Shown in pieces: positions 14,712-31,088 of a stretch of 64,000 bases of DNA (position 1 is the first letter of the stretch; every line of letters begins with the position of its first letter). The notes beneath the pieces are model-generated. The model had not been told where the DNA came from. It saw only the letters and a list, made by a program, of their open reading frames with translations, and did not search any database. A program made the position numbers and the translations under genes. This DNA is from Gymnodinialimonas sp. 202GB13-11 (GTDB lineage Bacteria > Pseudomonadota > Alphaproteobacteria > Rhodobacterales > Rhodobacteraceae), in NCBI RefSeq assembly GCF_040932485.1, contig NZ_JBFRBH010000001.1:2046001-2110000 (forward strand), written 5' to 3'.

Positions 14712-16103
14712 TTAGGGCTCAATGCCCAGATTTCGAGGCGCTTGTGCATGTAAACGCCAGATTACGCATAAAGCCGCCACCAAGAAGACAGCTTCGAGCA
14801 GGAAAACAGGTATATACGGTGTGGCGGGTCGGGATGTGCCGGGCATGGCAAGGATGACATCGCGGATCACGCCGCCGGCGGCGATTGCGATCCCGGCGGC
14901 AGTCGCTTGCACCGCGCCCCATGCGCCGAGCGCCAAGCCAATCTGTGACCGCGGCGCGCGGCGCATAGTGGCCGTCAGGGTGCCGTGCCCAAACAGGCCC
15001 GCCCCCACTCCTGAGACGAACGTGCCAAACGTGAAGAGGGCAACACCCCCCATCTGAGCGGCGATGGCAATCGCGATAAACGCAGGCACACCGATGGCGG
15101 CCCCGAAAGTGGCAACGTTCAGGGGCTCTGCCCCGCGCAAGAGAACGTGACTGGCAAACCAGAACCCCAGTAGGCCGCCGCCCGCCAAAACTGCGGTCAG
15201 CCGTGTGGTCATAGCGACCGACATCGAAAGGACTTCGCCGCCATAGGGCTCCAGCAGAACCTCGGCCATTCCGTAGGCCATCGTTCCAAGTGCGATAACG
15301 ATCAAAAGGCGCATTGTGCCTTCGCGGGCAGAGAAGACAGCCCATGCATCCGAGAACGCCTCAACCGGCGGCGGGTTGGCGGCGCGGGCGCGGTCGCGCG
15401 GCTCCTGCTTCCAGAGGGCGAGAAGGTTCAAAGCGATGGTTGTCACGGCCGCGCCTTGCACAACTTGAACAAGCCGCCCCGGGGTGTAGTCAGCCAGAAG
15501 ATAGCCAAAAACCAACGCGCTGACGATCATGCCGACAAGCAGCATCACATACATCAGGCCCACGACCTTTGGCTGCTCTTCAACCTCCACAAGGTCAGTC
15601 GCCAAGGCGAGGCCGACGGTTTGGACGGTGTGGACCCCTGCCCCAACCAGCAGGAAGGCGAGCGCAGCGGAGGTGCGGCCGATCCAAAGCGGCGCATCCG
15701 CCGCCTGATCGTAGCCGGACAAGACCAGCAGGGCAAAAGGCATGATGGCAAAACCACCAAATTGCAGCATTGTACCCTTCCAGATGTAGGGCACACGTCG
15801 CCATCCAAGGGCGGAACGGTGTTGATCGGATTTGAACCCGATGAGCGCACGAAATGGCGCGAAAATCAGCGGCAGAGCCAGCATGATTGCGACAAGTGAG
15901 GCTGGCACGCCAAGCTCCACGATCATCACGCGGTTGAGCGTGCCGACCAGCAAAACAAGGGCCATGCCCACGGAAACCTGGAATAGGGAAAGGCGTAGGA
16001 GCCGCGACAAGGGAGCCGTTTCGCTGGCAACATCGGCAAACGGCAGGTAGCGCGGCGCGATCCGAGTGATGCGGCGCAGGATATTGTCACGAATGCCGCT
16101 CAA
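14712..16103 (-). CDS. pucC: PucC, LH2 assembly MFS-type protein
   Basis: 463 residues, about 12 membrane helices, matching the PucC/LhaA (bacteriochlorophyll delivery) branch of the major facilitator superfamily. Visible family features are the N-terminal LPFADVASETAPLSRLLRLSLFQVSVG, the FRALIGFKSDQHRSALGWRRVP loop after helix 2-3, and the PYGGEVLSMSV loop. It is required for assembly of the peripheral antenna in the cytoplasmic or intracytoplasmic membrane. It follows pucA by 101 bases, a usual distance that often carries an mRNA-processing hairpin. Confidence 0.92.
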   Translation of the reverse strand: MSGIRDNILRRITRIAPRYLPFADVASETAPLSRLLRLSLFQVSVGMALVLLVGTLNRVMIVELGVPASLVAIMLALPLIFAPFRALIGFKSDQHRSALGWRRVPYIWKGTMLQFGGFAIMPFALLVLSGYDQAADAPLWIGRTSAALAFLLVGAGVHTVQTVGLALATDLVEVEEQPKVVGLMYVMLLVGMIVSALVFGYLLADYTPGRLVQVVQGAAVTTIALNLLALWKQEPRDRARAANPPPVEAFSDAWAVFSAREGTMRLLIVIALGTMAYGMAEVLLEPYGGEVLSMSVAMTTRLTAVLAGGGLLGFWFASHVLLRGAEPLNVATFGAAIGVPAFIAIAIAAQMGGVALFTFGTFVSGVGAGLFGHGTLTATMRRAPRSQIGLALGAWGAVQATAAGIAIAAGGVIRDVILAMPGTSRPATPYIPVFLLEAVFLVAALCVIWRLHAQAPRNLGIEP

Positions 16104-16204: not shown

Positions 16205-16567
16205 TTATTCGAGCGCCGTGTCGGTTGGTAGCAATGTCCTCGCGGAGGCCAGCGTCACCGGGTCTTCGATGACAAGCCTTGCTGTCCGCCCATCGGGCAG
16301 AATTACCGTCATGCCGTCATCGGCAGCGGCGTCGAGATACATTGGCGCGTCAGGTGTGACGTCCGCACTTGCGGGCAGGATATTCGTTTCCGTTTCCAGC
16401 GCCGCCGAGCCCGAGCCGAGTTCCTGTCCAGACAGGAAATCAGACACCCAGGTGGTGTTGCTGACAACGGCGACATGCACCGCAAACGAGCCGACGGCTA
16501 CCGCTGAAAGAAACAGCGGAATACCGACGGTGGGCTTAACAACAAGCCAGATCTTTGAATTGTTCAT
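16205..16567 (-). CDS. pucA: LH2 alpha polypeptide PucA with long C-terminal extension
   Basis: 120 residues; ordinary LH2 alpha chains have about 50-60. Residues 1-47 align without gaps to Rhodobacter sphaeroides PucA: KIWLVVKPTVG entry helix, one membrane helix, bacteriochlorophyll-ligating His31, TTW at 38-40. Positions 44-45 are Phe-Leu where B850 chains have two aromatic residues. Residues ~50-120 form an acidic Ala/Thr/Asp-rich tail, presumably periplasmic. It binds bacteriochlorophyll and carotenoid together with PucB in the LH2 ring. The start at 16567 lies 15 bases after the pucB stop. Confidence 0.93.
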   Translation of the reverse strand: MNNSKIWLVVKPTVGIPLFLSAVAVGSFAVHVAVVSNTTWVSDFLSGQELGSGSAALETETNILPASADVTPDAPMYLDAAADDGMTVILPDGRTARLVIEDPVTLASARTLLPTDTALE

Positions 16568-17334: not shown

Positions 17335-18669
17335 ATGAAACCGGAACCAACGCTTCAAGGAGATGAGCTGCCCCCCGGCGCAACCTTGTGTGCCGGTCAG
17401 TACACCATTGAAGGTTACCTCAACGCTGGCGGCTTCGGTGTGACCTATTTGGCCTGCGACAGCCTTGGGCGGCGCGTGGTCATCAAGGAGTGTTTTCCTA
17501 GCGCGATGTGCTTTCGCTCGCATCAGACGGTCTGCGTTCGCAGCCAGGGAAATGCAGTCGAATTCGATGCGATCCTCGAGTTGTTCGAGAAGGAAGCGCG
17601 CGCGCTTGCAATGCTACAAAACCCCTATGTCGTAGGTGTTCACCAGTATTTTCGCGACAACGGTACAGCCTACATGGCCATGGATTTTGTCGAGGGGCGC
17701 ACACTTCTCGACATTATTGAAACCACGCCTGATCGCCTGACGCCTGAGCTTGTGAAATCTTTGCTGTCGCAGCTTTTGCAAGCGCTCGACTACATCCACG
17801 AAAATGACATCCTTCATCGCGACATCTCGCCTGACAACATACTGGTGGATGATGACGACCTTCCCGTATTGATCGATTTCGGCGCGGCACGGGAAGACGC
17901 GACGCGGGTCAGCCGCGTGCTATCGAAACTGCAAACGGTCAAAGACGGCTATTCGCCCCAAGAATTCTATGTCGCAGGCAGCGACCAAACCTATGCGAGC
18001 GATCTATACGCCCTCGCCGCAACCTTCTTTCATTTGCTCACCGGAACCGCTCCGCCCAGTAGCCAGGTTCGGATGGCTGCCGCAGCGCGTGACGTGGCCG
18101 ACCCCTTGCCGCCACAGCCACACATCGACGGATATGATGCCGATTTCATCACGGCCATTTGGCAATGCCTCAGCCTGTTCCCAAAGGACCGGCTGCCGGA
18201 TGCCGATACATGGCTGTCAATGATCGACGATACGCGTCGTAAGGAGCGGCTGCTTGAACAAGCGGAACAGGATGAGACGCTGGACATGACAGTCTCTCAA
18301 CTCGTCCGCGACTTCTTTCGCGATTTCACGCCGAAGGCTTCTGAACCACCCAAACCAGCAAACGACCCGCCAAAACCAGTCGTGGCAAAACCCGAAGTGC
18401 GCGTCGTACAGCCTGAACCGCCGATTGATGATGGGGGCACCTTTCCGCCCGCAGAAGTCGCAACCGCGCATCCCAATTGGCCCCGAAAACCAAAACTGCA
18501 ACCGATTGAACGGATGCAGCTTCGGCACAGCCGTCCGGAAGTTTTGAACAGGAATGCGCCAGCAGAAGCTGCTTCGGGTCGCCCAAGCTGGCTGTCGCTG
18601 TTCGGGAAAGCCTCCAAAACCTCCCCCAGGGCGGTCGATGGGGATGATCAAACAGAGGAAATCGCATGA
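17335..18669 (+). CDS. Ser/Thr protein kinase (Hanks type), first gene of the dynamin-like operon
   Basis: 444 residues. The kinase domain covers ~22-290: glycine loop AGGFGVTYLA (31-40), catalytic Lys51 (VIKE), HRD at 161-163 with Asn168, DFG at 181-183, and an activation-segment end SPQE (207-210). The C-terminal ~150 residues are Pro/Lys-rich, probably a flexible partner-binding tail; no membrane helix is apparent. I use the ATG at 17335, which has AGGA upstream; the in-frame start at 17203 adds 44 residues unlike a kinase. The stop overlaps the FHA gene (ATGA). Probable targets are the FHA protein and the GTPases of the same operon. Confidence 0.92.
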   Translation: MKPEPTLQGDELPPGATLCAGQYTIEGYLNAGGFGVTYLACDSLGRRVVIKECFPSAMCFRSHQTVCVRSQGNAVEFDAILELFEKEARALAMLQNPYVVGVHQYFRDNGTAYMAMDFVEGRTLLDIIETTPDRLTPELVKSLLSQLLQALDYIHENDILHRDISPDNILVDDDDLPVLIDFGAAREDATRVSRVLSKLQTVKDGYSPQEFYVAGSDQTYASDLYALAATFFHLLTGTAPPSSQVRMAAAARDVADPLPPQPHIDGYDADFITAIWQCLSLFPKDRLPDADTWLSMIDDTRRKERLLEQAEQDETLDMTVSQLVRDFFRDFTPKASEPPKPANDPPKPVVAKPEVRVVQPEPPIDDGGTFPPAEVATAHPNWPRKPKLQPIERMQLRHSRPEVLNRNAPAEAASGRPSWLSLFGKASKTSPRAVDGDDQTEEIA

Positions 18670-19358
18670 GTATCAAAAGACTACGCAATGTTGCCGTGCG
18701 GATGCGTCCACCAGCTTCGGTGGAAGAACCAACCGCAGGCGCACGCACCTCGCATCCGGTCTCACAACCGCCAGCCAAACCCCGGCGCGTAGCGATTAGT
18801 CGACCGCGAACGGATCAGCCGCGCCAAATATGGGATCTTGAAGCGGACACAGCCAAAGTTGCGCCGGTGCCAGCACGAAGTGAAATTCCAGCGCCTGCTT
18901 CTCAAGATGCCCAACCGCCAGATCGCGCGAAGACGCGAGTCATTGGCTTTCTTGGCGCTGGTCCGGGGTCTGAGGCGGCGTCCGAAGTTTCAACAGATGG
19001 CCCGACCTACCCTGCCGGTTTTCTTGTCGTCATCGACGGGCCTGGCCGCGGCGCCTTCTTTCCGGTGACAACGCGGGTTTCATCCATCGGTCGTGGCGAC
19101 GATCAAGACATCAGCATGAATTTCGGGGATGAGAGCATTTCGCGCGCTGGACATGCTTCCATAATGTACGACGCCGAACAGAACCGCTTCTTCCTTGGGC
19201 ACGGCAACAAGGCCAACGCGGTCCGGCGCAACGATATGCCTGTGCTTGCCACAGAAGAAATCCAACACGGCGACACGATCCGTATCGGTAAAACCACCCT
19301 GCGTTTTCATGCGTTCTGCGATTCCGGCTTCACATGGAATGAGAGCGGCGATGACTGA
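18666..19358 (+). CDS. FHA-domain phosphopeptide-binding protein
   Basis: 230 residues. The N-terminal ~115 residues are low-complexity and Pro/Arg/Ala-rich. The FHA domain is at ~118-215: SSIGRGDDQDI with Gly142-Arg143, then ESISRAGHASI carrying the conserved Ser/Arg/His triad (Arg160, His163), then a GKTTLRF terminal strand. FHA domains bind phosphothreonine, so this protein is the expected reader of the upstream kinase. A KTRVIGF segment near residue 90 could itself be a phospho-acceptor (inference). Coupled to the kinase by a four-base overlap and to the phosphatase by an eight-base overlap. Confidence 0.88.
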   Translation: MSIKRLRNVAVRMRPPASVEEPTAGARTSHPVSQPPAKPRRVAISRPRTDQPRQIWDLEADTAKVAPVPARSEIPAPASQDAQPPDRAKTRVIGFLGAGPGSEAASEVSTDGPTYPAGFLVVIDGPGRGAFFPVTTRVSSIGRGDDQDISMNFGDESISRAGHASIMYDAEQNRFFLGHGNKANAVRRNDMPVLATEEIQHGDTIRIGKTTLRFHAFCDSGFTWNESGDD

Positions 19359-20235
19359 TCAGCCCGAGTTTGATTTCGACATTGCCTCAGCCCTCGCGCA
19401 AGGCACGCGATCACGCCAAGAAGATGCTGTGGCCGTTTCATTCCCGTTTGGTGCAAGGGATGGATTTGCTATTTTGTCTGATGGGATGGGCGGTCATGCA
19501 GCCGGAGATCTGGCCAGCCGCGCGATCGTTTCGGAGGTCTTCGCCGCCCTGACAATGCAGGAAAGTGCGCGCCAAGCCGCACCGTCCGACGCCCTGAGGG
19601 GAGCTGTCGAAAAGGCAAATACCGGGCTGAAGGCTTGCCTTGCAGCACGCCCGGACCATGAGGGCATGGGCGGCACGGTTGTGGCCACGTATCTCGCGGG
19701 GCGCGACCTGCACTGGGTCTCGGTGGGGGATTCCGTTCTTTATCTTTTTCGGGACGAAAAGCTTTCTCGCTTGAATGCGGATCATTCCATGGCCCCGCAA
19801 CTGGACCTGATGGCCGCAAATGGCGCTATGACCAAGGCCGAGGCTGCCGCTCATCCCCAGCGTAATTGCCTGACATCCGCTTTGACAGGCGAAACGCTCA
19901 CCGAAATTGACTGCCCGGACGCCCCGCTTGAATTGCGCGCGGACGATATATTGGTTTTGGCCAGCGACGGACTTCAATACCTGCCCGATCCTATCATCGA
20001 AGCGCTTTTGCTGCGCGCCCGCAATGAACCGAGTCGCATCATTGCGAACGATCTTCTTGAGGCTTTGGCGACCCTGAATGATCCAGATCAGGACAACACG
20101 TCGCTCGTGGTTATCCGACCGATGCTGCGGAAATGCGTGACCCGGAACAGCGGTTTGTTTCAGGCGCCGAGCGCCATGCTCAAAGCCATGCGCCGCGCCG
20201 TCACCCCGTCCATTTCCATTGAGCCGCGGGGGTGA
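19351..20235 (+). CDS. PP2C-family protein phosphatase
   Basis: 294 residues from the ATG at 19351, which overlaps the FHA gene by eight bases; an in-frame extension to 19195 would lie wholly inside the FHA gene. PP2C motifs are present: RSRQEDA (20-26), LSDGMGGHAAGD (42-53), GGTVVATYL, WVSVGDSVLYLF, LASDGL and DQDNTSLVVI. These supply the Asp residues of the two-metal centre. It dephosphorylates Ser/Thr-phosphorylated proteins and should counteract the kinase two genes upstream. Confidence 0.9.
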   Translation: MTDQPEFDFDIASALAQGTRSRQEDAVAVSFPFGARDGFAILSDGMGGHAAGDLASRAIVSEVFAALTMQESARQAAPSDALRGAVEKANTGLKACLAARPDHEGMGGTVVATYLAGRDLHWVSVGDSVLYLFRDEKLSRLNADHSMAPQLDLMAANGAMTKAEAAAHPQRNCLTSALTGETLTEIDCPDAPLELRADDILVLASDGLQYLPDPIIEALLLRARNEPSRIIANDLLEALATLNDPDQDNTSLVVIRPMLRKCVTRNSGLFQAPSAMLKAMRRAVTPSISIEPRG

Positions 20236-21392
20236 TGATGCAGGGCCTTGCGCCAGATCCACGTGAGACCGTCGCAAAGCTGGAAGCGCTTGTGACGAAC
20301 GCCCGCATCCCACAACGGGATGCGGATCGCTGCGTGCATCTGATCGACACACTGCGCAGGCCGGTTCGCGTTTGCCTGATGGGCCAGAGGGACAGCGACT
20401 TACGCACCTTGCTCTACACGCTGTGCGGCCGCGACATTGCGCCCGACGGTCTTTCCTTGCCGCCTGCCATTGAACTGCAATTCGGTCATTCTCCACAAAC
20501 ACATGCAACACTTGCGGACGGATCGCACTTAACCTGTGAGGGCTGGCCTCGCGCGGACCTGCTCGCGGAAGCTCCGGTTTTCCTGCGCATCACCGCGCCT
20601 TTAGACGCACTCACACGCATGTCGTTTCTGGCTTTGTCCCTGGATGTGAACCCAGCCATGCATCGCCCTGCTCTGGCATGGGCTGCACGACGCACTGAGA
20701 TAGCGGTTTGGTGCACGACTGCCTTTTCCGACCTGGATGCACGCATCTGGGCCAATGCGCCCGAGCGACTGTCACATCGGGCATACTTAGTGGAAACGGC
20801 GCCGAACACAGGCGTCTCCGACCACAAAGCAGCCGCCGATTTCACTGGGCACTTGCATTTAGCCTTGCCCGGCGAGGTCGCCCCCCTACTCAACCGTATC
20901 GGCGACGACATTGACGAAGCACGAATAGCCGATCTGGATGCTGCTCATTTGTTGCTACATCGGCTTGGACATCTGAACGGGCCAATCAGCACGGCGAGTG
21001 ACGTTGCAACAAAGGAGCCGCAGCGCAGCCCGGGACAGCTTTCGCGACTGCGCGACATCTTGTCGGAACCCACGATCTACCTGTCACGCCGCGTTCGAGC
21101 CCTGGCCGAAGATTTGGCATGGATCGACCCGGATGCGGAAGCAGCTTGGCACGAAACGGCGCTCATTCACTGCACAGAAACAGCTGAGGGTCTGAAAGAC
21201 CGATCCAGCGAGTGGCCGGACGATTTGGCGGAATTCACTGCTTTGTCGGAAATGATCGACGACGCAACAAATTTGCTTTTGCTTCTCCAAATGGATTCTG
21301 GTCCTGATCAAGTAGAAGACGCGGCCGGACTTTTGCACCAGATGCGTTGCGCGTTCGATCAATGCAGGCTTGGGCACGGGGTGGCGGCATGA
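20235..21392 (+). CDS. Pseudo-GTPase related to the downstream small GTPase
   Basis: 385 residues. A central segment (IAVWCTTAFSDLDARIWANAPERL) aligns with IAIWCTPATQAWRQSEAAIWDNMPDAV of the GTPase at 23446. The position of the P-loop is MGQRDSDLRTL (about residues 49-59), lacking the GK(S/T). The segment matching TRFDK reads VETAPNT. Nucleotide binding is therefore probably lost. The C-terminal half is helical. The start is ambiguous between GTG 20232, ATG 20235 and ATG 20238; 20235 gives a TGATG overlap with the phosphatase gene. It may be a scaffold or regulatory partner of the active GTPases (inference). Confidence 0.75.
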   Translation: MMQGLAPDPRETVAKLEALVTNARIPQRDADRCVHLIDTLRRPVRVCLMGQRDSDLRTLLYTLCGRDIAPDGLSLPPAIELQFGHSPQTHATLADGSHLTCEGWPRADLLAEAPVFLRITAPLDALTRMSFLALSLDVNPAMHRPALAWAARRTEIAVWCTTAFSDLDARIWANAPERLSHRAYLVETAPNTGVSDHKAAADFTGHLHLALPGEVAPLLNRIGDDIDEARIADLDAAHLLLHRLGHLNGPISTASDVATKEPQRSPGQLSRLRDILSEPTIYLSRRVRALAEDLAWIDPDAEAAWHETALIHCTETAEGLKDRSSEWPDDLAEFTALSEMIDDATNLLLLLQMDSGPDQVEDAAGLLHQMRCAFDQCRLGHGVAA

Positions 21393-23446
21393 AACATGAT
21401 CCCGCCCTTCAGGCGCCTCCGATGAACCAAGCTCTGCTGTCGCGTGCCTACCGCGGTTTCACGCCTCTCACGCGGGATCTTGCAAAGCTGGAAAAGGCCT
21501 TGGGCCATTTGCAAGTCGCGGGTGGGGACGCCCACGCGGATCATATCCGTGCCCTCCGTGCCGAGATGCAGGCCTTCGCGCCTTCGGTAACGTTAATTGG
21601 CCAAGTGAAGGCGGGAAAGACCGCGCTGGCTAACGCGATGGCCGGCACAGTTGGATTGCTGCCCTCCGATATCAATCCGTGGACGTCGGTGGTCACGTCC
21701 GTCCACCTTTCGCCACGCCGTACCAAAACGCAGGAGAAATCCAGTTATCGCTTTTTCACGGATACGGAATGGTCGAACCTGCTGACAACCGGCGGGCGGG
21801 TCGGAGAACTGGCAAGCCGTGCCGGTGCAGATCAAGAGCTTGAAAAGGTCCGCAAACAGCTTGAGGCCATGCGCGACGCGGCCCGCGCCCGATTGGGGGA
21901 CCAGTTCGAGATGTTGCTGGGGCAAACCCACGACTACGGCTATGCAGATTCCGAGTTGGTCCAGCGTTATGTTTGCTTGGGCGATGACAGCGACGGCATT
22001 CCCGCACAGGGCCGATTTGCAGATATCACCCGGTCCGCAGACCTTTACCTGTCGCAACCCGCCCTGCCCTTGCCCCTATGCCTGCGCGACACGCCCGGTG
22101 TGAACGACACGTTCATGGTGCGCGAACAGATTACGGTGAACGCCATTCGCGGCAGCCGGTTGTGCGTCGTTGTCTTGTCGGCACATCAAGCCCTGTCCAA
22201 CGTGGACCTTGCTTTGGTTCGGCTTATTGCCAACGTCCCGTTGCGAGATGTCGTGATCTTCGTCAATCGCATTGATGAACTCGCAGACCCCGCCAAAGAC
22301 ATCCCTGAAATCCGCGCCTCGATCGAGAAAACGCTGAAATCGCTCAGTATTCCGGCAGAGGCAGAGATTCTGTTTGGTAGTGCCCATTGGGCAAATGCGG
22401 CCCTTTGCGGTGATTTTGAACAGATGGGCCGTGACAGTGCGGCGGCCTTGCTCAACTACGCGCGATATCAAGATGGTGCGACGGGCCAGGAAAAAGACAC
22501 CGCTGCACTGATCTGGGCCCTATCCGGACTCCCTGCTCTTGGAGAAACAATCGCAGAACGCACCCGCTGCGGTGACGGCGCGCGGCTGCTTGCCGGTATG
22601 GCCGCGGCCGCGCGCAACACCGCCGGTGCAATTTCTGCCAAGCGCGCCATGCGGGAACGGCAGATTGTCGAACGGACAAGCGGCACGGCAAACATGCAAG
22701 ACCTCGCCGATGCCATTGATCGGATCTCATCCGATGCCCGCGCAACGCTTGATCAATCCCTCACGACCTTGACGGCTGATCTCGATCTGCGGCTCGGTAA
22801 AGCGCAAGAGGCTTTTGTCTCGCGCGGCACCACGTCATTGATCCGACACCTCGAGATTTACGGCGAAGACGTAGAATGGACGTATGAGCCCGCCGGACTG
22901 CGCCTGCTGTTGAAATCGGCATACAATGTCTATTGCGCGAAGACCCACAAAGCCGCGGACGCCATCTTGGAAAGGGCAGCGCGGCACCTTGAACGCCTAT
23001 TCGAGGCAACCTTCAACCTGAGCCATACGGGCTTCACGCTAGAGCCGCCAGCCACGCCAGAGCCGCCGGTACCGGTCATGTTGGGCCAAACCATTGCGCT
23101 CGACATTAGGGGCAGTTGGTGGACCCGTTGGTGGCGACGCCGGCGCAGCTATGACAGCTACGCCGCGGACTTTCGTTTGTTGATCGAGGCCGAAATTGCA
23201 CCCATCGTGACCGCCCTTTCGTCAGATCACGCAGCCCCGCATGCAAGTGCGGTGCGCAAGGCCCTCGACAACTTCCTCACCAGACAACGTGGCGTGATCC
23301 TTAGCCTTGCTGATCAAGGCGATGAAAATCTTGCACGTCTACGCGAGGAGCAAGGACAGACGGATGAACAGCAATCTCACGCGCTGAACACTGCGCAAGC
23401 GATCCTTGCAGATTTCGCGCCAGTTCAAAGAGAAAGGGCAAATTGA
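21389..23446 (+). CDS. Dynamin-like large GTPase
   Basis: 685 residues. GTPase motifs: P-loop GQVKAGKT (71-78), DTPG (234-237) and NRID (293-296), with a long insert between G1 and G3. Predicted helical middle and C-terminal regions are consistent with the stalk of bacterial dynamin-like proteins. A Trp/Arg-rich patch, SWWTRWWRRRR (~576-586), is a candidate membrane-binding paddle. Such proteins bind and reshape membranes in a GTP-dependent way. The start (ATG 21389) overlaps the previous stop as ATGA. Confidence 0.85.
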   Translation: MKHDPALQAPPMNQALLSRAYRGFTPLTRDLAKLEKALGHLQVAGGDAHADHIRALRAEMQAFAPSVTLIGQVKAGKTALANAMAGTVGLLPSDINPWTSVVTSVHLSPRRTKTQEKSSYRFFTDTEWSNLLTTGGRVGELASRAGADQELEKVRKQLEAMRDAARARLGDQFEMLLGQTHDYGYADSELVQRYVCLGDDSDGIPAQGRFADITRSADLYLSQPALPLPLCLRDTPGVNDTFMVREQITVNAIRGSRLCVVVLSAHQALSNVDLALVRLIANVPLRDVVIFVNRIDELADPAKDIPEIRASIEKTLKSLSIPAEAEILFGSAHWANAALCGDFEQMGRDSAAALLNYARYQDGATGQEKDTAALIWALSGLPALGETIAERTRCGDGARLLAGMAAAARNTAGAISAKRAMRERQIVERTSGTANMQDLADAIDRISSDARATLDQSLTTLTADLDLRLGKAQEAFVSRGTTSLIRHLEIYGEDVEWTYEPAGLRLLLKSAYNVYCAKTHKAADAILERAARHLERLFEATFNLSHTGFTLEPPATPEPPVPVMLGQTIALDIRGSWWTRWWRRRRSYDSYAADFRLLIEAEIAPIVTALSSDHAAPHASAVRKALDNFLTRQRGVILSLADQGDENLARLREEQGQTDEQQSHALNTAQAILADFAPVQRERAN

Positions 23447-24246
23447 TGAAACCGGAGCATAAAAAGCCCTGCATTGCCCTGCTTGGCGAATTCTCTGCAG
23501 GGAAAAGCACATTGGCCAACCTTTTGTTAGGTCGCACCCAATCCAGGGTGCGAGTGACAGCGACGCAGGTACCACCGCTTTGGTATCAACACGGCAATGG
23601 CGAGCCAGTCCGCATCCGAAACGATGATACGAAAGAACCATTAGGCCCCGATGCGGATATCGCGGTCGCCGTGGAGGATACAAAGGTCGTGCACGTGCCG
23701 TTGGACGCCCCCATCCTTGAACGGATCGATCTTCTCGATATGCCGGGAAGCTCTGATCCTAATATGGCGCCGGACGTTTGGGACAGTTTGCTACCAAGCG
23801 TCGACATAGCGATCTGGTGCACACCCGCGACGCAGGCATGGCGACAATCGGAGGCCGCAATTTGGGACAATATGCCGGATGCGGTCCAAAACCGGTCGAT
23901 GATGTTGTTGACCCGGTTCGACAAGGTGCGCATGCAGGATCAGACCCGCGTCCTGAAGCGCGTGCGCACCGAGGTCGCGGGACAGTTTCGACATGTTCTT
24001 CCCGCCGCATTGCTCGCGAAAGACGCGGCGGGGCGAAGTCCTGCGCTAAAGACGATTATAGCGGCCTTGGACGACCTTATCGAAAACGCTGTACCGAAGG
24101 TCGTTGCGCCAGTCGAAGCTTCAAGGGCACAGATACCAAAGTGCCCGCCCAGGCCGCTTCACGAAGCTGTAACGCCACGCCGCGTCACCGCCTTGTCCGC
24201 TGGCACTAAAAGCAAACGCCGCTCTGGGCCGAGCGCGCTTTTCTGA
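23446..24246 (+). CDS. Small dynamin/Era-like GTPase
   Basis: 266 residues. P-loop GEFSAGKS (14-21), DMPG (98-101), TRFDK (156-160). After the G domain comes a short basic tail (SAGTKSKRRS). It resembles the G domain of dynamin-like proteins without the long stalk. The TGATG overlap with the large GTPase predicts coupled synthesis. Bacterial dynamin-like proteins often work as heteromeric pairs encoded side by side, which fits this gene with its 685-residue neighbour. The relationship to the pseudo-GTPase at 20235 suggests duplication. Confidence 0.83.
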   Translation: MKPEHKKPCIALLGEFSAGKSTLANLLLGRTQSRVRVTATQVPPLWYQHGNGEPVRIRNDDTKEPLGPDADIAVAVEDTKVVHVPLDAPILERIDLLDMPGSSDPNMAPDVWDSLLPSVDIAIWCTPATQAWRQSEAAIWDNMPDAVQNRSMMLLTRFDKVRMQDQTRVLKRVRTEVAGQFRHVLPAALLAKDAAGRSPALKTIIAALDDLIENAVPKVVAPVEASRAQIPKCPPRPLHEAVTPRRVTALSAGTKSKRRSGPSALF

Positions 24247-24257
24247 TCGAACCCATT

Positions 24258-24611
24258 ATGAACGTTGATTGCCTCCATTCTTACCGCAACGCGCATCCAC
24301 AATGCGCACTCGTCATGCTCAGTGACACACGCTCTGGCACTGTCTTGGCCGCGGATGGGGAACTGATCTACCCCCAAGAACACCTTGATGCACTCAGCAT
24401 GCTCGCGTCCGACACGCTCGACGTTGTCAGCGTACATGCCATCCACGCCATCCTGCACACGCCCCATGCCACTCGCTTGTTTGTGCGGGTGCCGCATCTG
24501 GGCACCGTTGCACTTACGTGTATAGTCAATCCTGGTTCAGACATCACCGAGCTCCTTCCGGGATTGCTTCAATTCGCAGGCACCCTCGAGATTGGGGGCA
24601 TCGCCGCATGA
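24258..24611 (+). CDS. Roadblock/LC7-like small protein
   Basis: 117 residues. The pattern resembles the roadblock/LC7 fold: a first strand pair (CALVMLSDTRSGTVLAADGELI), a helix (DALSMLASDTLD), strands (TRLFVRVPHLGTVALTCIV) and a final helix (ELLPGLLQFAGTLE). Roadblock proteins of the MglB type bind small GTPases and regulate their nucleotide state, which would fit the gene order. The assignment is by pattern only and needs a profile search. ATGA overlap with the next gene. Confidence 0.55.
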   Translation: MNVDCLHSYRNAHPQCALVMLSDTRSGTVLAADGELIYPQEHLDALSMLASDTLDVVSVHAIHAILHTPHATRLFVRVPHLGTVALTCIVNPGSDITELLPGLLQFAGTLEIGGIAA

Positions 24612-25354
24612 CGAACCTTGCCCGCATTCAATCGACCCTGAACGCGGCTGCCAATGTGGGCAGCCCTGATGCACCGGTCGGTGACTTGTGGGGACTTTTT
24701 GAGAAGCTCAACCGCATTGTCCTCCCGCGGGAGGTCACACTCAACCTGACAAATGGCGCAGAACTAAAGCTGACCGCAGGCCATCGAAGACTGCTTGGTA
24801 TGACCTCCAACCGAACCGGTGCCGCGCCTTGGGGGGATGATTTGAGCGCTGGAGACGAAAAGCGCGTCGTGGACGCACTAGCGAAAGAGCTTTCGGAACA
24901 TGCCGTTGCCAACTCTTCCGAGATCGCGCTTTCGCAAGGCGCGGAGGCATCTGGGCTTGGTCTCGCAGTATCCCGATTGCTGGAGTTGATTGGTCCAGCC
25001 AGCGCGAACCCGACCCGTTCAGCCCTGCCATCATTACTGAAATCCTTCGTCGCTCGATATGCGGGAGAGATCGAAGCGAGCTTCATAGCGGACAGCCAGG
25101 AAATTGCGCCACTAACCGGAGAGCATCACGTTATTGAAGAACGCGGTCCTGAGGTCGCCGATATCCTTGCCCGAGCAACTTCAGAAGACAGTGCCTTGGC
25201 CTCCACACTGGAAACAGACGGTGCGCTCGCCTTTCCTCAGAGTACAGCGGAAGAGACTTGCATCTTGATCGTGGGATGCGTCGGCACCTACGGCGCGATA
25301 GTGTTTCGCCACACCAGCGCGCATCAAGCCATGGAATACTGGAAAGCAGCCTAA
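24608..25354 (+). CDS. Last gene of the dynamin-like operon, unknown function
   Basis: 248 residues, soluble, no motif recognised. The N-terminal ~75 residues look mixed alpha/beta (VTLNLTNGAELKLTAG), followed by an Ala/Glu-rich helical centre and a final strand-rich segment (CILIVGCVGTYGAIVFRH) that could be another roadblock-like or PAS-like fold. The start is the ATG at 24608 overlapping the stop of the roadblock-like gene. The 3' end overlaps the convergent lacI-type gene by four bases. Confidence 0.75.
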   Translation: MTNLARIQSTLNAAANVGSPDAPVGDLWGLFEKLNRIVLPREVTLNLTNGAELKLTAGHRRLLGMTSNRTGAAPWGDDLSAGDEKRVVDALAKELSEHAVANSSEIALSQGAEASGLGLAVSRLLELIGPASANPTRSALPSLLKSFVARYAGEIEASFIADSQEIAPLTGEHHVIEERGPEVADILARATSEDSALASTLETDGALAFPQSTAEETCILIVGCVGTYGAIVFRHTSAHQAMEYWKAA

Positions 25355-29918: not shown

Positions 29919-31088
29919 ATGCGCGCACTGCACAAGCTTTCCTTTGCCCGCGCGAGAGCGGCGGCCCCAGGAAAATACTCTGACGGTGGTGGGCTTTGGC
30001 TGTTCAAGCGACAAGATGGGGGTGCGCAGTGGATCCTGCGCGTAACCGTACATGGACGACGCAGAGAAATGGGTCTTGGAAGGTTCCCTGAAGTCTCCAT
30101 TCAAGAGGCTCGTGTCGAAGCGGATAAGTGGAGAGCGGAGGTGCGTGCGGGGCGCGATCCAATCAAGGTTCGGGAGCGACGACGCCGCGATGCCAAAATA
30201 AACCTCTACCTGTTGGAGGATATCGCACGGGACTGTTTTGAGGCACGTAAAGCTGAGCTCAAGGAGGACGGCAAAGCAGGTCGGTGGTTTTCTCCACTCG
30301 AACTCCACGTGCTACCCAAACTAGGAAAGATTCCCATCGCAGAGATAGACCAACGTGACATACGAGATGTCCTGAAACCAATCTGGCATTCAAAAGCCGC
30401 AACAGCAAAGAAAGCACTGGAAAGGCTGTCAGTTTGTATCGAACACGGCGCCGCGCTGGGCTTGGATGTTGACCTACAGGCACCGAGGAAAGCCCGTGCG
30501 TTATTGGGGGCTCAGCGGCACACAGTCGCCCACATTCCGTTTATGCCATGGCAAGATGTACCTGGGTTCTTCAAATCTCTGGATCCCGACAGTGTCGCGC
30601 ATCTGGCGCTGAAGCTTCTAATTCTAACTATCGGGACCCGATCGAAACCGCTCCGTTTTCTCCACTTGGACCATATCCAGGACGATGTCTGGAACGTGCC
30701 AGGCGAGCTAATGAAATCCCGGCCTGGCGCTGCCGCGGATTTTCGAGTTCCGCTCTCTAGGCAAGCTTTGTCAGTCATCGAAAGGGCGCAGCCATTTCAG
30801 CGAGACGGCTTCCTATTTCCCAGTGCTAGAAAAGGAGTGATCTCGGATGCGACTATGGCGCGACTTATGGAGCGACGAGGCCTCGAAGCACGTCCACATG
30901 GGTTCCGATCCAGCTTCCGTGTTTGGTGTTCGGAAGTTGGAGATGTTACTTGGGAGGTTGCAGAAACCTGTATAGCGCATAGCACAGGAAACAAGGTCGA
31001 GCGGTCGTACAAGCGGACAGACCTTCTGGAGCAAAGGCGTGAGGTCATGCAACGCTGGGCTGATTTCGTAGATGGTTCAGAACCCTGA
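29919..31088 (+). CDS. Tyrosine-type integrase (P4/DUF4102 family)
   Basis: 389 residues. The N-terminal DUF4102 arm-binding domain (SFARARAAAPGKYSDGGGLWL, then GLGRFPEVSIQEAR) is followed by the core-binding and catalytic domains. Catalytic residues are visible: Arg in TIGTRSKPL, the HGFRSSFR box, His in CIAHSTGN, and the nucleophile Tyr in RSYKRTDLL. Normally a Glu follows the first Arg (RxxE); here it is absent. It integrates or excises the element that follows. The direction is away from the putative att fragment, as is typical for islands of this kind. Confidence 0.93.
   Translation: MRALHKLSFARARAAAPGKYSDGGGLWLFKRQDGGAQWILRVTVHGRRREMGLGRFPEVSIQEARVEADKWRAEVRAGRDPIKVRERRRRDAKINLYLLEDIARDCFEARKAELKEDGKAGRWFSPLELHVLPKLGKIPIAEIDQRDIRDVLKPIWHSKAATAKKALERLSVCIEHGAALGLDVDLQAPRKARALLGAQRHTVAHIPFMPWQDVPGFFKSLDPDSVAHLALKLLILTIGTRSKPLRFLHLDHIQDDVWNVPGELMKSRPGAAADFRVPLSRQALSVIERAQPFQRDGFLFPSARKGVISDATMARLMERRGLEARPHGFRSSFRVWCSEVGDVTWEVAETCIAHSTGNKVERSYKRTDLLEQRREVMQRWADFVDGSEP

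Follow-up and report, generated by a model that had tools for sequence, protein, structure and literature searches.

A Rhodobacteraceae operon joining a kinase, an FHA protein and a phosphatase to dynamin-like GTPases and a roadblock-fold protein

The DNA considered here (the window) is a 64,000-nucleotide stretch of the genome of Gymnodinialimonas sp. 202GB13-11. Eight genes, all on its forward strand at positions 17335-25354, form an operon that is real, conserved and nearly restricted to the family Rhodobacteraceae in the samples searched. In order, the open reading frames and their Pfam matches give KIN (a kinase), FHA (a predicted phosphothreonine reader), PP2C (a phosphatase), U4, DYN and GTP (three predicted members of the dynamin-like GTPase family), R7 (a protein with a predicted roadblock fold) and X8. 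That a kinase, a reader and a phosphatase share an operon with dynamins and a roadblock protein suggests a phosphorylation-controlled membrane-remodelling machine. The kinds of parts are known; their combination is new and apparently undescribed.

With the starts chosen here, neighbouring genes overlap by 1 to 8 bases at six of the seven junctions (KIN/FHA, FHA/PP2C, PP2C/U4, U4/DYN, DYN/GTP and R7/X8), and an 11-base gap separates GTP from R7. An earlier note on this DNA had described eight co-directional, mostly overlapping genes, and both points hold. Its labels of Hanks-type kinase, FHA protein, PP2C and large dynamin-like GTPase agree with matches to the Pfam models Pkinase, FHA, PP2C_2 and Dynamin_N. 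Pfam gave no match in the window's U4, R7 or X8.

Conservation and distribution of the gene set

Evidence that the genes form a set is provided by 79 loci: the window, two loci on plasmids and 76 genome stretches, none longer than 20 kb. Of the 77 genome stretches, 21 are shorter than 19 kb. GTP-type and DYN frames are present in all 79, R7 in 63, PP2C in 54, FHA in 53 and KIN in 51. The complete order kinase-FHA-PP2C-U4-DYN-GTP-roadblock-X8, counted on the DYN strand alone, recurs in 39 loci (40 if one split DYN frame is counted), so the gene set is not a product of chance. The profile hidden Markov models were made from first-round clusters and are therefore biased to those members. Across Rhodobacteraceae the genes are thus conserved together, which bears out their treatment in the earlier note as one set.

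The kinase, FHA protein and phosphatase (together, the phospho-module) are also associated with R7. Among 56 stretches of at least 19 kb, a table that omits L116, L117 and the 21 shorter stretches, module and R7 occur together in 41, the module alone in none, R7 alone in 4 and neither in 11 (Fisher test 9e-9, with kinship not corrected). The distance matrices of the proteins correlate in all 28 pairwise comparisons, with r from 0.39 to 0.82, values reached by none of 200 permutations. These two results show inheritance as a unit, not interaction. The flanks are variable: excluding clusters taken as parts of the system or as antisense frames, no other gene cluster occurs in more than 10 of 81 loci.

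DYN relatives were found in 77 of 295 Rhodobacteraceae genomes, each of a different genus, and some genomes carry two or three copies. In a sample of the order, 97 of 292 genomes match DYN, and all of them are the window genome or belong to the same genus or family. A class sample gave 2 of 385 at 1e-20, namely the window genome and one of the same family. A phylum sample gave 10 of 398 at 1e-8: eight from the family, one weak match (2.1e-9), and one genome from another alphaproteobacterial family (G1199; DYN match 4.5e-92), where DYN and GTP stand alone in the 20 kb read (L257).

The best 80 of 87 relatives, all named loci, carry mostly Rhodobacteraceae or roseobacter names (Ruegeria, Roseovarius, Aliiroseovarius and others), and two are metagenome-assembled genomes labelled merely "Alphaproteobacteria". 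In the closest named locus, labelled uncultured Roseicyclus, DYN is 78% identical. Plasmid matches comprise 12 from Leisingera, 5 from Ruegeria and 1 from Rhodobacter. Of the genus members in the order sample, six of eight have DYN; in one without a match (G296), a distance of about 138 kb separates the two flanking genes, and a clean empty site is not demonstrable.

The loci fall into several arrangements. Type A has the window order. Type B, found in Ruegeria and Aliiroseovarius, reads C5-DYN-GTP-R7-C4-DYN-GTP-KIN-FHA. In R. conchae, which has this type, FHA is followed by PP2C and two proteins annotated as substrate-binding; one has a sub-threshold match to the Pfam model SBP_bac_3 and the other has none. 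From their sequences we read a signal peptide in both of these products, as well as an N-terminal stretch resembling LysM. The locus of Leisingera sp. S132 has its kinase, FHA, PP2C and binding-protein genes opposite the DYN half. Type C consists of repeated DYN-GTP pairs.

Several of these loci carry further features. In the Ruegeria/Leisingera version (L117:28684-35259 and L228:19532-23925), the kinase lies near two secreted-looking, LysM-like, substrate-binding-like proteins, and the L117 kinase combines a transmembrane-like segment with a long C-terminal region. C5, found in 45 loci, is a conserved protein of small size (about 134-209 aa); in many of the Ruegeria-type loci L055-L115 its gene lies just before DYN. 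The one member scanned has no Pfam match, and the family has no profile match to R7 or X8. A plasmid of Rhodobacter sp. CZR27 (L227:817-11267) carries two DYN-GTP pairs and, after them, genes for a histidine kinase, a DUF6781 protein and an AarF/UbiB kinase-like protein; the L227 stretch read contains no Hanks kinase module.

The encoded proteins

Catalytic and binding residues of the phospho-module are conserved. Counts of HRD and DFG, of PP2C motifs and of P-loops were made on the 51 of 79 loci that have PP2C, U4 and DYN in order. The kinases keep HRD and DFG in 45 of 46 cases. The phosphatases keep DG[MV][GS]G in 49 of 51 and DNx[ST] in 39 of 51, and the D and N of the latter site are present in all 51. 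PP2C matches the Stp1 family at 9.9e-41, which is below that family's curated cut-off. In the FHA protein, the binding residues G142-R143, S159-R160, H163 and N184 (counted from the ATG) are present in all 50 aligned relatives.

The N-terminal tail of the FHA protein is weakly conserved and of variable length, the frames having been taken from stop to stop with true starts uncertain. Within it lies a nine-residue motif, R-x-K-T-R-x-(L/I)-G-F, found in 48 of the 50 relatives. By column, T, R and G are each kept in 49 and F in 48. A stricter pattern is matched by 47 of the 50 FHA proteins and by none of the other seven protein sets. The motif also occurs in 29 of 29 members of a second set, where the Ruegeria type reads RVKTTFLGF. 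This set holds the FHA proteins with FGDxxISR, the other 37 of 66 FHA-labelled frames having been dropped as presumed wrong or cut; the two sets may share species and are not independent.

With its conserved threonine in a tail ahead of an FHA domain whose binding residues are intact, the FHA protein recalls GarA/OdhI of the GarA/OdhI-PknG-GlnX-GlnH pathway. In GarA/OdhI, the FHA domain binds its own or a neighbour's phosphothreonine tail, and the tail motif is ETTS-like. The motif here is RxKTRxxGF, and the neighbours are dynamins rather than metabolic enzymes. The FHA region matches OdhI at 6.2e-6, below the OdhI cut-off.

The same genome holds a second kinase/FHA/PP2C cluster, outside the window and about 10 to 24 kb before its start (G000:C1, about 2022400-2036500; L264:3410-17502). 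It encodes two kinases (776 and 1184 aa), two FHA proteins (669 and 218 aa) and a PP2C protein of 810 aa. A further protein of 287 aa has an FHA-like look and a zinc-ribbon end, with no Pfam match at 1e-4; the cluster thus has three FHA proteins by reading and two by Pfam. Over the aligned parts, its kinases are 45-46%, its small FHA protein 43% and its PP2C 47% identical to those of the operon. Since the small FHA protein carries a similar threonine motif, RPKTRIHGYG, the threonine goes with the triad. By these sequences, the triad looks like a reusable part, here joined to dynamins.

The two dynamin genes with Pfam matches resemble a known pair of dynamin-like proteins (DLPs). As a single sequence, DYN has its best solved match in chain 5OWV_A (Cj-DLP1, 1.4e-4); as a profile, it matches 2J68 (BDLP, 5.9e-13) and 5OWV_A (8.8e-13) about equally. 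GTP matches 5OWV_C (Cj-DLP2) at 1.1e-10 as a single sequence and at 6.1e-18 as a profile. Adjacent genes therefore match two different chains of one solved hetero-tetramer. The P-loop is intact in 51 of 51 DYN and 50 of 50 GTP relatives.

The earlier note had called GTP a small GTPase. A small Ras-like GTPase was rejected on the match to 5OWV_C, and GTP is better described as a short DLP2-type dynamin G-domain. The match is confined to the G-domain, and 266 residues are, judged by length, too few for the trunk, so GTP is not classed as a full DLP2. A Ruegeria-type homologue has 547 aa and room for a trunk.

U4 is, on profile evidence, a third, DLP2-like member of the GTPase family. It matches the GTP family profile (probability 99.4, 3.4e-21), and its best solved chain is again 5OWV_C (4.8e-6). 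It had been labelled a pseudo-GTPase, which fits the decayed P-loop of the window protein but not the family: GxxxxGK[ST] is kept in 35 of 51 relatives, and a pseudo-GTPase by design was rejected on this count. The motif is lost in the window and in the four stretches whose DYN matches rank next (L118-L121), and eleven further members lack the exact motif, some by one residue.

The likeness to Campylobacter jejuni Cj-DLP1/Cj-DLP2 (5OWV; PMC6104087) extends to gene placement, with a larger DLP1 and a DLP2 encoded next to each other. Unlike that pair, the window has three GTPase-type proteins rather than two, a GTP too short for the trunk, and added kinase, FHA, PP2C and roadblock genes.

R7 is confidently predicted by AlphaFold2 to fold as a roadblock/LC7 protein (pLDDT 91.1, element order H-EE-H-EEE-H). 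Its top Foldseek matches are roadblock/LC7 proteins, MglB and Ragulator subunits, including 3KYE (1.4e-5), 9JUE (TM 0.79) and MglB 1J3W. None of 37 members of the family matches the Pfam Roadblock model at E 0.1. The description of R7 as roadblock-like thus stands at the level of the fold but not at that of the Pfam sequence model. As in MglA/MglB and Ragulator, GTPase genes lie beside a gene for this fold; the GTPases here are dynamin-type rather than Ras-type.

The C-terminal half of X8 is a probable roadblock-type domain. Its AlphaFold2 model is weaker (pLDDT 80.6, pTM 0.53), and residues 140-248 have the R7-like order of elements. Foldseek gave weak matches (best 3.3e-3), many to longin/roadblock complexes and some to phytochromes. 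Alignment of X8 with R7 by hhalign gave a probability of 6.7, and a Pfam scan of X8 family members led nowhere. Profile comparison places X8, C16 and C4 in one family (probabilities 98.8 and 99.2).

A possible mechanism and its alternatives

There is about an even chance that the operon encodes a dynamin assembly that is controlled by an envelope signal, uses threonine phosphorylation as its switch and has roadblock proteins as its scaffold. An envelope signal would stimulate the kinase, which would phosphorylate T90 in the FHA tail (RAKTRVIGF). The FHA domain could then bind the phosphothreonine in its own or a neighbour's tail, as in GarA/OdhI, and its hold on a partner would change; PP2C would reset the phosphorylated state. 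The natural partners of FHA may be the GTPases or R7/X8. As roadblock-type scaffolds or GTPase regulators, R7 and X8 would join the switch to the G-domains, and a heterotypic DYN-GTP pair with U4 as accessory would be assembled or released at the membrane under its control.

The input is suggested by type B loci, which combine long kinases bearing a transmembrane-like segment with the binding-protein pair and so point to an envelope signal. Among the kinases of the named loci and the window (n=68), such a segment is present in 50 of 50 long ones (at least 640 aa) and in 1 of 18 short ones. In the R. conchae kinase it spans residues 398-416. Relatives of the secreted binding-protein-like pair occur in four of 81 loci (L117, L139, L173 and L228). 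Their linkage to the kinase there recalls GlnH-GlnX-PknG-OdhI (PMC9769921).

The output would probably be membrane tethering or repair, as judged from other bacterial DLPs. In the C. jejuni pair, GTPase activity and lipid binding are switched on when a 2:2 tetramer forms, and the complex tethers liposomes (PMC6104087). Bacillus subtilis DynA is described as delaying phage lysis (PMC8844932) and IniA as a bacterial DLP acting in membrane fission (PMC6715688).

Several observations weigh against this reading. The window KIN has no transmembrane-like segment (hydropathy maximum 0.97), and the hydropathy threshold is passed by 8 of the 46 kinases of type A. The binding-protein-like pair is rare, at four of 81 loci, many stretches ending short of where it would lie. 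Since 218 of the 295 genomes of the family gave no match to DYN, it is dispensable. On a count of both strands, 23 of 79 loci, some of them cut by contig ends, lack kinase, FHA and PP2C, so the dynamin pair can exist apart from the phospho-module; in 12 of those 23, DYN and GTP are the sole frames of the set in the stretch read. From the co-inheritance statistics, function cannot be told apart from linkage and common descent. Finally, GTP lacks the length for a helical trunk like that of Cj-DLP2, and any tetramer must therefore differ in geometry. The phosphorylation-controlled GTPase machine proposed in the earlier note is therefore supported in part: the set is conserved together, but it is not a fixed unit, as the 12 loci with DYN and GTP alone illustrate.

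A fuller version of the proposal can be put forward tentatively. Here the operon would encode a new membrane machine, with an envelope-sensing kinase, a single-threonine FHA switch and a three-GTPase dynamin assembly on two roadblock-type scaffolds, as a bacterial counterpart of the roadblock platforms that link signals to GTPases on eukaryotic organelles.

To our knowledge, bacterial dynamins are known mainly as pairs, and little is known of their control. Here a dynamin is joined, across dozens of genera, to a write-read-erase phosphorylation module and a roadblock protein. If the proposed mechanism is true, the operon offers a tractable genetic system for phosphorylation gating of dynamin assembly, as well as a bacterial example in which dynamin-type GTPases are served by roadblock proteins. 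With a single conserved threonine, the control step would be addressable by one point mutation.

An alternative, which we regard as unlikely, is that the GTPases are signalling switches. In that case R7 and X8 would form a Ragulator- or MglB-like platform, the DLP-like G-domains would report nucleotide state and the output would be a regulatory decision. This would suit GTP (266 aa) and U4 (385 aa), which are mainly G-domains, as well as the R7 matches to Ragulator and MglB and the weak X8 matches to Mon1-Ccz1 and Rag complexes. DYN, however, is full length with bacterial DLPs as its closest solved relatives, and the longer Ruegeria-type GTP argues the same way.

Defence against phages or membrane damage is also unlikely, and ranks after signalling. 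Triggered by the kinase, the dynamins would keep the membrane intact and postpone lysis, a role for which DynA (PMC8844932) is a precedent. The PADLOC profile of LeoA matches DYN (6.5e-12) and GTP (1.4e-5); the kinase is similar to those of mad6 (6.5e-46) and PD-T4-6 (1.8e-44). Presence is also patchy, as the six of eight genus members illustrate. The kinase matches may, however, reflect the common kinase fold, since Pkinase, PASTA and other kinases match too. No known defence gene was found by annotation in five plasmid neighbourhoods or by Pfam among ten genes flanking the operon in the window; PADLOC was not run there. For LeoBC there is no convincing match (GTP 3e-3).

We know of no kinase or roadblock genes in LeoABC. 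The KKP kinase-phosphatase modules share domains with the operon, and the available part of their description (PMC11341870) does not mention a dynamin. More broadly, the literature matches listed contain no description of this gene set or of such a dynamin locus, in line with the earlier note, although this is weak evidence, with subscription papers and preprints outside its scope.

A machine for photosynthetic or other internal membranes is highly improbable. It is prompted by the adjoining pucC and antenna genes and by reaction-centre genes in 40 of 77 DYN-positive against 82 of 218 DYN-negative genomes (odds ratio 1.8, p 0.03, uncorrected). However, 37 of the 77 DYN-positive genomes have no reaction-centre match, and the distance between the operon and the pucC orthologue is about 131, 134 and 2,690 kb in three of six DYN-bearing genus genomes (G307, G372 and G402, respectively). 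A photosynthetic-membrane role as main function was rejected on the distribution of reaction-centre genes.

That the trio of kinase, FHA and PP2C, shared with PpkA-Fha-PppA, is the threonine-phosphorylation remnant of a type VI secretion system since lost is very improbable and was rejected: the sheath marker VipB, the only tss marker searched, has no match in the whole genome (an E. coli control was positive), FHA scores 13.9 bits against TagH with a cut-off of 120.25, and across genera the triad is linked with R7 and with dynamins. The statement in the earlier note that tss genes are absent is supported by this one marker.

Feature coordinates and neighbouring genes

Table 1. Features of the operon, with positions in the window
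Feature	Positions	Strand	Details
KIN, Hanks-type Ser/Thr kinase	17335..18669	+	444 aa; Pkinase 5.2e-29; HRD and DFG; Pro-rich tail
FHA, predicted phosphothreonine reader	18666..19358	+	230 aa; variable tail, then FHA domain; FHA 9.3e-7
FHA-tail motif R87-A-K-T90-R-V-I-G-F95, T90 candidate phosphosite	18924..18950	+	conserved in relatives
PP2C-type phosphatase	19351..20235	+	294 aa; PP2C_2 1.4e-8
U4, predicted DLP2-like G-domain with decayed P-loop, and C-terminal part	20235..21392	+	385 aa; no Pfam match
DYN, large DLP1-like dynamin-like GTPase	21389..23446	+	685 aa; Dynamin_N 1.1e-10
GTP, DLP2-like dynamin G-domain and short tail	23446..24246	+	266 aa; Dynamin_N 1.2e-10
R7, predicted roadblock/LC7-fold protein	24258..24611	+	117 aa; AlphaFold2 and Foldseek
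X8, predicted two-domain protein, C-terminal half (residues 140-248) roadblock-like in element order	24608..25354	+	AlphaFold2

No tRNA gene was found within the window. The operon is adjoined, on the opposite strand, by a PucC gene (14712-16103) and an LHC antenna gene (16205-16567). A few genes downstream of it lies a phage-type integrase gene (Arm-DNA-bind_3) at 29919-31088.

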